Below, one piece after another: positions 4,071-8,169 of a stretch of 8,266 nt of DNA. The DNA is taken from the NCBI GenBank assembly GCA_021129445.1, contig JAJOLG010000062.1, forward strand, positions 4,732 through 12,997, given 5' to 3'. The notes beneath the pieces were generated by a model. The model saw nothing but the letters and a program-made list of their open reading frames with translations, ran no database searches and was not told the DNA's origin. The first letter of the stretch is position 1, and each line of letters opens with the position of its first letter. The translations under genes and the position numbers were made by a program. Source of the DNA: Candidatus Altimarinota bacterium. GTDB taxonomy: Bacteria; Patescibacteriota; Gracilibacteria; GCA-2401425; JAJOLG01.

Positions 4071-5105
4071 ATGAAACCAATATTAAACAAAATCTTCCCA
4101 ATCACCCAAAAATTCTGACAAAACCCAGAAATCTACAAAAGATTTAACCTTGCCTGACACAACGGCTTTGATTTTGCAGTTCCAGAATGAACACCAATTT
4201 TTTCACCAATTGACGGAGAAGTATTTTTCATCGATTATCAGCCAACTTGATATTGAAAATATATAAAATTAAGAGATGATAAAAATGAGATAGTTTTTGC
4301 TTATTTGTCATTTATTTGAAAAGAAATTTGAGAAAAAGTGAAAGTTTGAGATTTTTTGTGATACACTTGAAATACAGGTTTTTCGACTTGACCGTATTTG
4401 CATTTTGGAATTCGCGAGTTGAAAAAATGATATGTTGAAAATTATGATAATTGATATTTTTGATATGTTGATCCGCAAAAATATTTTTCTGATGATGAAA
4501 ATTTCTTTTGAGATGAAAAAAAATTAGTCGATCCGTGAAAAAATTTGGAGGAAAAAAATTTTGCAAAAAATTATGATAATGTGGCAGATTGGGCAAAAGA
4601 TTGATACGATTTTGTTGTTGAAGAATGAATTTCAAATTGAGAAAGACCAAAAGAATTTATTTCAAGGGAAGAATTTCTCTTGATGATTTTTAGATTTTCT
4701 GAATTTATTTGAGAGGAGCGGGAGCTTGATGAAGATTTTAAAATTGATTTTGAAAAACTAGATATTGCAGACAGGCCGAGTGAATGGGCGGGAGATGCAT
4801 ATTTATTCGTTGTTTCTGAGAAAATTTCAAACTGAGAAAGACCAAAGGAATTTATTTCTCGTGAAGAGGCTTGGGTGATTTTATTCAGATTTTTGAGAGA
4901 TTATCATCAATTTCAAAAAGTTCCACAAATTGATAAATATAAGGACGAAAAAGTTAGAAGCGATTGATTGTCAGATTGGGCAAAAAGGGCTTATGATTGG
5001 GTATTGAAAAATTGAATTTCAAACTGAGAAAGACCAAGAGAATTTATTTCAAGGGAAGAAATTTGGGTGATGCTGTTGAGGTGTTATGAGGTTTTGGAGG
5101 ATTAG
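4071..5105 (+). CDS. M23/LytM-like peptidase-fold protein with three C-terminal SLH-like repeats; both catalytic His positions are Tyr
   Basis: 344 codons ending in TAG. Residues 1-125 form an M23 (LytM) domain: G-H30-N-G-F-D34-F-A-V-P-E-G-T-P gives the first zinc His and Asp, and G-P-Y109-L-H111-F-G-I-R-E gives the third zinc ligand, H111. Family members cleave peptidoglycan cross-bridges. Here the first His of the HxH pair is Tyr (Y109), and the other catalytic His, usually in a Y-A-H-L segment, is also Tyr (F-A-Y78-L-S). The zinc site therefore looks intact but the usual catalytic histidines are missing. No signal peptide or membrane segment is visible, as in many phage endolysins. From residue 173 three repeats of about 64 residues follow, each with W-A-x(n)-I-S-N-G-E-R-P-x-E-F-I-S-R-E-E. 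They resemble SLH or wall-binding repeats of the G-I-T-D-G-T-R-P...T-R-E-E type. It lies 23 nt after dnaN and 16 nt before the reductase. It may be a wall-binding or regulatory pseudo-peptidase, or an active enzyme with altered chemistry. Confidence 0.85.
4587..5102 (+). repeat. Three in-gene SLH-like repeats of about 64-65 codons
   Basis: The conserved 45-nt core encoding I-S-N-G-E-R-P-x-E-F-I-S-R-E-E occurs at 4629-4673, 4824-4868 and 5016-5060, so the period is 195 and then 192 nt. Cores 1 and 3 differ at 2 of 45 bases; core 2 differs from each at 6. Each core is preceded by a W-A helix (D-W-A-K, E-W-A-G, D-W-A-K) and followed by a hydrophobic helix ending in R-F or R-C. The flanks are much more diverged than the cores, pointing to selection or gene conversion on the core. 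Confidence 0.88.
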
Positions 5106-5121
5106 TAAAAATATTAAAATT

Positions 5122-5871
5122 ATGAAAAAATTCCAAGCAAAAATTTTAGAAATAAATAAAAAAACAGCTGATATTTCAGAGTTTATTTTATGAATTTCAG
5201 AAAAAATGGATTTCAAAAATTGACAATTTTTGACAATTGGTATTCCGCATAAAAAAATTTTGGAAAGAAATTGAGAAAAAATTGTGAAAGATGTTGTTTT
5301 AAAGAGAGCTTATTCCATTGTTGAAATTCAGGATTGAAAAATAAAATTGTGGATAAAAAATGTAAATTGAATTTGAACAAAATTTTTATTTTCTCAAAAA
5401 ATTTGAAACGAATTAAATATTGCTTGAAGTTTTTGAAATTTTTTTGTGAAGTGAGATGAGGAAAATTTGATTTTTATGGCAACTTGAATTTGAGTTCCAC
5501 CAATAATTTCACATTTAAAACAAGTTTTTGAGGGCGAAAAAAAATTTTTTGAGTGAAAAAAAATTTTATTTTTGTATTGAGTTCGTGAAAAAAAAGATTT
5601 CTTTTTTGAAGAAATTTTAAAAAAATTTTCGTCAGAAAATAAAAACTTTTCCTATAAAATATTTTTTTCTCGTGAGGAAAAAAATTTTTCTGATGAAGAA
5701 AAAAAATTTTTTGAAAAATGATATTTTACAAAAATTTTTGAAGATAAAAATTTTCCATTTCAAAATTCAGAGTTTTATTTTTGTGGCTCTGTGCCGTTGA
5801 AAGATGAAATTTTGTGAATTTTGAAGGAAAGGTGAATTGATGAGGAAAAGTTTGTTTTTGAGGCTTATTAA
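5122..5871 (+). CDS. FNR-family FAD/NAD(P)-binding oxidoreductase (ferredoxin-NADP reductase-like)
   Basis: 249 codons ending in TAA, the usual size of a compact bacterial ferredoxin/flavodoxin-NADP reductase. The N-terminal half is an FAD-binding barrel: N-G34-Q-F-L-T-I (family P-G-Q-F), R62-A-Y-S65 (the R-x-Y-S flavin motif) and I-A-G-S-F-G-N-F-F. The C-terminal half is the nicotinamide-nucleotide domain: M-A120-T-G-I-G-V-P-P (family G-T-G-I-A-P), L-Y-G-V-R-E-K-K-D, F-C221-G-S-V-P-L-K-D (family C-G-P) and a terminal E-A-Y. The family moves electrons between NAD(P)H and a small iron-sulfur or flavin carrier, or acts in related reductases. No iron-sulfur motif is present here and no partner carrier gene is in the window, so donor and acceptor are unknown. 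About 17 UGA Gly codons are used; the Cys-Gly of F-C-G-S uses GGC. It sits 16 nt after the M23-like gene and 19 nt before the mazG-like gene, so it is probably cotranscribed. Confidence 0.87.
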
Positions 5872-5890
5872 AAAAATAATAAATAAAACG

Positions 5891-6295
5891 ATGACAAATT
5901 TTAGAGAAAAAGTAATATTTTTATCTGAGCAGGCAATAAAATTAGACCCGTATTTAGATACAGTTAATTCAAAAAAATTATTTTGAGAGATAAAAGATGA
6001 GATAAAAGAAGCAATTGAGGTTTTTGATAATGATGATGGTGAATTAGAAAAAGAAATGTGAGATGTTTTTTGGGATTTTAATATTTTAATACAGAAGTTG
6101 CAACAGGAATGAAAGATTGATATTGAAAAAGTTTACAAAAGCATTTATGAAAAAATGTCTTCAAGGAAACCATTTTTAGAAAAAAATCAAAAGGTTTCAA
6201 AAGATGAAGCAAAAGCTATGTGGAATAGAGCAAAAATTAATGAATGATATTCCAAAGATAGATTATGGGTTGATGAAAGGGAGTGATTTGAATAA
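5891..6295 (+). CDS. MazG-like nucleoside triphosphate pyrophosphohydrolase
   Basis: 134 codons ending in TAA, predicted all-helical. The MazG/dUTPase-like alpha fold is indicated by E33-I-K-D-E37-I-K-E40-A-I-E-V-F and L-E-K-E55-M-G-D58-V-F-W-D-F, the paired E-x-x-E and E-x-x-D motifs that hold Mg2+. The distal R-K-P-F-L...A-K-A-M-W-N-R-A-K region also resembles single-domain MazG proteins. Such enzymes hydrolyse (d)NTPs to (d)NMP and pyrophosphate, removing non-canonical nucleotides or regulating nucleotide pools; which nucleotide this one prefers cannot be read from the sequence. It is a single-domain protein, unlike the two-domain MazG of E. coli. It starts 19 nt after the reductase and is followed by alaS after 62 nt. 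Its place in one transcription unit with the sliding clamp would fit a nucleotide-quality role, but this is inference. Confidence 0.82.
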
Positions 6296-6357
6296 AAAAA
6301 TTGATAAATATTTTTGTTTTATTATTTTTTAAATAAATTAAAAAATAAATTAAAAAC

Positions 6358-8169
6358 ATGATAAAATCAAACGAAATCAGACAAAAATTTTTAGATTTTT
6401 TCAAATCAAAAAATCACGCAATAATTCCATCAGCATCAGTTGTGCCAGAAAATGACCCAACTGTGCTTTTTAATACCGCTTGAATGCAACCTTTGGTACC
6501 GTATTTACTTTGAGAAAAGCACCCGTCCTGAACAAGATTGGCGGATTCGCAAAAATGTGTGAGAACCTGAGATATTGAGGACGTTTGAGATGATTCTCAT
6601 TTAACTTTTTTTGAAATGTTGTGAAATTGGTCGCTTTGAGATTATTTTAAAAAAGAATCAATTGCATATTCTTGGGAATTTTTAACTTCTGAAAAATGGT
6701 TGAATTTAGACCCGAGAAAAATTGCAGTGACTGTTTTTGAATGAGATGAAAATGCTCCGAGAGATGAAGAATCTGCGAAAATTTGGCAAGGAAATTGAAT
6801 GCCAGAAGATAGAATTTCATTTTTGCCAGCATCAGAAAATTGGTGGGCAGCATGAGATACTTGACCTTGTGGGCCGGATTCTGAGATTTTTTATCGGGTT
6901 TGAAAATCTGAATTTCCGCCAGAATGATCGAATGTCAAAAATGATGAGGAAAATTGGATGGAAATTTGGAACAATGTTTTTATGGAATTTAATAAATTGC
7001 CAGACTGAACTTTGGAAAAATTACCTGCTCAAAATGTTGATACTTGAATGTGATTGGAGAGGATTACTGCGACTTTAAATTGAGTAAAAACAGTTTACGA
7101 TACAGATATTTTTCAGGAAATTATTGAAAAAATTTGTGCAGAACTTTGAGTAAATTACGAAGAAAATAAAAAATGAGTGAGAATTATTGCAGATCATTCA
7201 AGAACCGCTTGTGTGATGATTTCAGACGGGGTTTTGCCTTGAAATGTTGATCAATGATATGTTTTGAGAAGGTTGATTAGGATTGCGATTAGGCAAGCTT
7301 ACAAAATGAATTTTAAATGACAATTTTTGCATAAAGTTGCGGAAGTTGTAATTGAAAAGTTGTGAAGTGCTTATTCTCATATGATTGAAAAAAAATCAGA
7401 AATTATTTCTGAAATTTTGAGAGAAGAAAAACAATTTTGAGAAACTTTGGAAAAATGATTGAAAGAATTTGATAAATTGATGAAATGATTTCAAATGGCT
7501 TTTGAAAAAACTTGAAGAAAAATTGAGGAAATTTCGTGAAAACAAGCTTTTAAACTTTATGACACATATTGATTTCCACTTGAAATGACAATTGAAATTG
7601 CAAATGAAAAGTGATTAAAAGTTGATGAAAAATGATTTTTTGAAGCAGAAAAAAAACATCAAGAATTATCAAAAGCAGGAGCTGAAAAAAAATTTAAATG
7701 AGGTTTAGCTGATGCTGGTGAGGAAACAACAGCTTTGCACACTGCGACACATTTACTTTTGGCTTGATTAAATAAAATTTTATGATGATGAATTTCACAA
7801 AAATGATCAAATATTACACCAGAAAGATTGAGGTTTGATTTTAATTTTGACAGAAAAGTTGAAAAAGATGAATTAAATAAAGTTGAAGAATGGGTAAATA
7901 ATGCGATTAAATCGTGATTTGATGTTGAAGTTCAAGAAATGGAAAAAGAGAAGGCAAAGGCTGAGTGAGTTGAGTGAAGTTTTTGGGAAAAATATCCTGA
8001 AATTGTGAAGGTTTATTTGATAAAATGAAGAAATTGAGAAATTTATTCAAGAGAACTTTGTGGTGGACCACATGTTGAAAATTCTGAAAAAATGGGGATT
8101 TTTAAGATTAAAAAAGAAGAATCGTCGAGTAGAGGGGTGAGGAGGATTAAGGCGGTTTTGGTTAAATAA
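6358..8169 (+). CDS. alaS: Alanyl-tRNA synthetase, short form lacking the C-Ala domain
   Basis: 603 codons ending in TAA. The enzyme attaches alanine to tRNA-Ala and hydrolyses mischarged Ser/Gly-tRNA-Ala. The N-terminus is typical ([10 protein letters not shown], then F-N-T-A-G-M-Q-P-L). Class II core signatures follow: K-C-V-R-T-G-D-I-E-D-V-G, F-F-E-M-L-G-N-W-S-L-G-D-Y-F, A-G166[11 protein letters not shown], N-V-D-T-G-M-G-L-E-R and I-A-D-H-S-R-T-A. The editing domain has the zinc quartet H461-T-A-T-H465 and C568-G-G-P-H572. The gene stops about 30 residues after this. Usual bacterial AlaRS is about 860-880 residues, so the C-terminal C-Ala (DHHA1) domain is absent and no remnant follows. 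About 42 Gly codons are UGA, including three in a row at 7783-7791. It is the last clear gene of the dnaN operon; the ATG lies after an A-rich leader without Shine-Dalgarno. Confidence 0.95.

Follow-up and report, generated by a model that had tools for sequence, protein, structure and literature searches.

In the 8,266-nucleotide stretch of DNA analyzed here (the window), from a tiny bacterium of the symbiont type, the gene at positions 4071 to 5105 (+ strand) encodes a 344-amino-acid protein that combines a probable M23 pseudo-peptidase domain with three SLH-like repeats. The M23 domain retains the three zinc ligands of its family and carries tyrosine at both catalytic histidine positions. 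We consider it likely, though well short of certain, that this is a catalytically dead M23 protein that still holds its metal, and that its ancestor was an active, signal-less M23-plus-SLH-repeat hydrolase of the kind that still exists in related Patescibacteria. On our analysis, it probably grips the cell wall and does not cut it.

Read with genetic code 25, the window is a chromosomal gene run encoding a DHH/DHHA1 protein, a prepilin-like protein, DnaN, the M23 protein, an FAD/NAD-binding reductase, MazG, and an AlaS-like protein. The M23 gene starts 23 bases past the end of dnaN, ends 16 bases short of the next start, and contains 24 in-frame TGA codons, which are translated as Gly. The window holds no phage gene neighborhood around it of the kind expected for an endolysin. 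The AlaS-like open reading frame (ORF) (6358 to 8169) stops after 603 amino acids, which is shorter than the usual length of a bacterial alanyl-tRNA synthetase. At the end of the window's contig (C13) lies a transposase-like ORF (L057, 13455 to 13865, − strand), which by eye we take to be of the IS1595/ISXO2 type. While TGA encodes Gly in the genome of the window (G000), the long M23 and dnaN frames of the sole same-order genome compared, G001, are free of TGA (L035, L036, and L268), as if the code had changed within the order.

The M23/LytM-fold domain spans residues 1 to 140 (4071 to 4490), including a zoocin A-like NGYFGYVDP tail, and was delimited by its match to Peptidase_M23 (PF01551), an AlphaFold2 model, and structural comparison. 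The PF01551 match covers residues 29 to 117 (E = 2.2e-20; 73.1 bits versus a cutoff of 28.7). In the alignment, H30 (4158 to 4160) and D34 (4170 to 4172) are the first and second zinc ligands, forming the HxxxD motif, and H111 (4401 to 4403), the second His of HxH, is the third; we infer zinc binding from these three residues only. Y78 (TAT, 4302 to 4304) occupies the position of catalytic His260 in LytM and His78 in EnpA (PMC9662197, PMC5519744), and Y109 (TAT, 4395 to 4397), at the first His of HxH, that of His291 in LytM and His109 in EnpA (PMC3046168, PMC8269130). These assignments of ligands and substituted positions had been proposed in an initial annotation of the DNA, and alignment with 219 other M23 matches upheld them; the span given there, 4302 to 4403, runs exactly from the Y78 codon through the H111 codon. 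The same annotation noted that TAT is a single C-to-T transition from CAT, which is correct but uninformative, because Tyr is mostly TAT in this genome (16 of the 19 Tyr codons of the gene).

The coding sequence contains only three His codons: H30, H111, and one in the C-terminal part. Both His residues of the M23 domain are zinc ligands, so there is no spare His to fill the catalytic positions, where an active M23 peptidase has two non-ligand histidines. We also considered that TAT might be recoded as His, and rejected this because His stands at both positions in the three other M23 genes of this genome (HDHHH); CAT and CAC codons in the AlaS-like gene of the window contradict it as well.

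The pair of tyrosines is exceptional within the family. In the alignment with the 219 other M23 matches, conservation reaches at least 85% in 21 columns, and the protein deviates at just two of these, Y78 and Y109. Column 78 holds His in 99% of the 219 sequences and Tyr in none; column 109 holds His in 215 of 215, a count biased by the presence of PHLH in part of the seeds, since many of the 219 sequences were obtained via seeds containing PHLH or GHNGxDF. Matches obtained without these seeds kept both His residues wherever they were read, and Tyr was found at neither position in any other surveyed M23 domain, those of the three other M23 genes of the genome included. Apparent non-His residues at position 78 in other loci were alignment shifts that disappeared in the profile alignment, and so did an apparent T in L321.

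Pattern searches returned no second case. T-G-x-Y-L/F-H-F matched in 61 of 353 genomes of the class; the 44 loci read (30 + 14) contained no further M23 domain, and matches outside those loci have a Cys or Trp codon at the Gly position. Across 379 genomes of the phylum, T-G-P-Y-L/F-H-F retrieved the window and one T-C-P-Y-L-H-F site elsewhere, nothing more. A viral pattern match, considered as a second Tyr-bearing M23 protein, was discarded because it is not M23. A T-C-N-Y-L-H-F site recurs outside M23 genes in many genomes of family f15, where it probably belongs to one conserved, unrelated protein. The double Tyr is thus known from one gene in one genome, and this counts against the reading we favor, in which conservation of the dead site has no second case. 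Both Tyr codons might also stem from a mistake in assembly or in the consensus, the genome being of metagenome type and split over 77 contigs. We give that explanation scarcely any credence: it needs two independent errors on exactly both catalytic codons, 93 bases apart, in a gene whose frame and every other conserved residue are right.

An alternative hypothesis is that the protein is a working metallopeptidase or hydrolase whose chemistry differs, with one or both Tyr hydroxyls taking the place of His, for example, in transition-state stabilization. Tyrosine is known to assist near catalytic zinc, as with Tyr204 of LytM, which stabilizes the oxyanion (PMC9662197), and the zinc ligands and groove residues are retained here. 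Yet the domain has no spare His to serve as the general base, every M23 enzyme for which we found a test needs His at these positions, and the class and phylum pattern searches revealed no clade of Tyr-bearing homologs. We regard such chemistry as very improbable, and we hold the same view of an M23-fold zinc enzyme whose site has been rebuilt on two tyrosines for a reaction or substrate unlike those of the peptidoglycan endopeptidases. The initial annotation had offered two options, a zinc-binding pseudo-peptidase serving wall binding or regulation and a subfamily with different chemistry. The former, for which we infer the loss of activity, is well supported by the alignment, the fold, the lack of a spare His, and published mutants of the equivalent residues; nothing positive spoke for the latter, and no subfamily was found.

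The structure prediction that had been suggested as a check gave an intact LytM fold. The AlphaFold2 model, built from 60 aligned sequences, has pLDDT values of 92 to 98 over residues 11 to 140 and superimposes on LytM (4zyb_A) with a DALI-scale Z of 17.6 (124 residues; rmsd, 2.3), as expected of a LytM fold. Z scores ranged from 15 to 19 across LytM, lysostaphin (18.6), ShyA, the DipM LytM domain (19.0, the best by Z), and EnvC. The top match in both sequence and Foldseek comparisons was EnpA, an Enterococcus faecalis prophage M23 protein (PDB 6smk); in the alignment with it, Tyr109 faces residue 109, the engineered His-to-Ala site of the crystal.

The DipM match raises the possibility that the protein regulates a wall amidase, activating it as the LytM-type regulators EnvC, NlpD, and DipM do; DipM also joins a dead LytM domain to wall-binding domains (PMC10336132). 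Lysostaphin and ShyA are tied with DipM within one Z unit, and because gaps of <1 count as ties, the structural ranking favors neither regulator nor enzyme. Regulators of this type usually lose their zinc ligands and are periplasmic, whereas this protein keeps all three ligands and has no evident export signal. The genome (95% complete) contains no Amidase_3 (PF01520) match and one Amidase_2. Taken as a regulator of this kind, the protein would be quite an improbable one.

Downstream of the M23 domain are three SLH-like repeats of about 42 residues each, at residues 169 to 210 (4575 to 4700), 234 to 275 (4770 to 4895), and 298 to 339 (4962 to 5087), all on the + strand. They were recognized by repeat and profile comparison and appear in the full-length model as three helix pairs of low confidence (pLDDT, about 41 to 63); a model of the C-terminal part alone (pLDDT, 38) was set aside. 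Every repeat contains ISNGERP(K/R)EFISREE, and the motif ISNGERPKEFISREE is conserved in all three. Residues 301 to 339, in repeat 3, also match phrog_18208. The protein scores 12.4 bits against SLH (PF00395), under the Pfam cutoff of 20.8, which counts against our preferred reading; the profile built from the repeats matches the SLH profile with E = 1.1e-5 and a probability of 82, and L323, a relative of the same layout, scores 25.9 bits, above that cutoff. The same genome holds no second copy of the repeat region and has 11 ordinary SLH matches. By hydropathy alone, the protein has no evident export signal or membrane segment (KD19 maximum, 0.83; N terminus, 0.12). The missing signal is a point against wall binding, although the intact relatives likewise begin without an evident one.

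The nearest M23 domains are 40 to 50% identical to this one and have intact active sites. They occur in short proteins that lack a signal, come from the same class, and are encoded among housekeeping genes; viral contigs carry them too. A family of M23 proteins in same-class Patescibacteria (L306 to L309 and L323 to L325; roughly 175 to 330 amino acids, intact sites, no evident export signal) likewise sits amid housekeeping genes. Neighbors of the nearest M23 genes include what we take by eye to be a GatB/EF-P-like gene (G036) and a RidA-like gene, which adjoins in G029 and G008.

Two genomes from another family of the class encode proteins of the same layout (L323 in G635, 244 to 1233, − strand; L324 in G636, 5731 to 6723, − strand), surrounded by housekeeping-type genes. 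These proteins of 329 to 330 amino acids (versus 344), with no evident signal peptide, also consist of an M23 domain and three SLH-like repeats, are 31 to 33% identical to the window's protein over the full length, and have a corresponding NGYxGYIDPQ tail. Unlike it, they have both catalytic His residues and no in-frame TGA, and their repeats are nearer to canonical SLH. The occurrence of the same layout with both His residues indicates that the Tyr pair is derived, and these comparisons of sequence are most simply read as a later change that arose within a cellular M23-SLH family. No close relative of the full protein was found in the genome contigs searched, and no phage had the M23-SLH layout at 80% coverage. 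The exact place of the protein in the M23 tree was not recovered.

The tree bears on a further explanation, that a hydrolase no longer of use, or even harmful, began by losing its catalytic residues and has become a drifting, jobless protein. The terminal branch is long (0.77; the median M23 end branch is 0.39), the composition is unlike the rest, the protein occurs in only one genome, and the linkage to dnaN is not conserved, as none of the 29 relatives' loci examined had an M23 gene adjoining dnaN. Against decay, the ORF is intact and free of frameshifts, all of the other columns that are at least 85% conserved are retained, and the AlphaFold2 model is confident. Random hits on the two catalytic His residues alone would not be expected; this pair is one of 210 that could be picked from the 21 conserved columns. 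The motif ISNGERPKEFISREE also persists in all three repeats, though 15 to 17 of 42 codons differ in residue when the repeats are compared whole. We think decay unlikely, while giving it real weight.

Mutants of other M23 enzymes suggest how a dead, zinc-retaining wall binder would behave. H260 and H291 of LytM are described as essential, with one serving to activate water and the other to stabilize the transition state (PMC5519744), and LytM H291A is inactive (PMC3046168); EnpA H109A is folded but inactive (PMC8269130). Pgp3 H247A, whose altered residue is the first HxH His, retains its zinc and was crystallized with a pentapeptide and with a crosslinked tetra-tri peptide (PMC6978369). In Clostridioides difficile SpoIIQ, a zinc-binding LytM domain takes part in a zinc-associated protein interaction (PMC4982068). 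From the LytM, EnpA, and Pgp3 results, the most likely outcome is that hydrolysis is lost and stem-peptide binding is retained, by analogy with mutants that are Ala and not Tyr substitutions.

We postulate that, with both catalytic His residues gone, the hydrolytic water would not be activated and the transition state would not be stabilized, leaving hydrolysis abolished or very slow. The retained zinc may hold the groove and coordinate a stem-peptide carbonyl of peptidoglycan. The M23 domain would then grip stem peptides, and the repeats would bind a wall polymer. The protein could occupy, mark, or shield peptidoglycan and compete with or recruit active hydrolases, either the three intact M23 enzymes of the cell itself or hydrolases of a host; host contact is a further role that we propose. 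The protein would have a bearing on how reduced code-25 Patescibacteria treat their own wall or that of a host.

Inactive M23 proteins are already known, including EnvC, NlpD, DipM, Csd2, SpoIIQ, and LECT2, and the bacterial ones have mostly lost the zinc ligands as well. EnpA coincides with the window's protein at positions 78 and 109 but has both His residues in the wild type and is a D,L-endopeptidase; its Ala was engineered (PMC8269130). DipM, EnvC, and NlpD are comparable in having an inactive LytM fold, with wall-binding domains in DipM and NlpD (PMC10336132); they differ in being exported and in having lost zinc ligands (DipM retains one of three). Csd2 of Helicobacter pylori, also an M23 protein, keeps its groove although two of the five key residues have changed (PMC5053510), but in its case the changes affect one zinc ligand and the first HxH His, and no metal is bound. 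LECT2, a nonenzymatic vertebrate signaling protein of the M23 fold, resembles our protein in keeping the zinc ligands and losing a catalytic His (PMC9662197, PMC13385698); the model matches it with a Z of 12.3 (PDB 5b0h). It has lost one catalytic His and not both, has an extra loop, and is a secreted animal protein. In the limited library of literature that we searched, we came upon no account of an M23 protein that keeps the three ligands while lacking both catalytic histidines; this combination appears to be new, while degenerate M23 proteins themselves are known. Because most inactive bacterial M23 proteins have lost zinc ligands, the part played by the metal after catalysis is hard to test in them. 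The protein described here, together with its intact relatives of the same layout, makes the step from enzyme to binder testable by a two-residue exchange in both directions.
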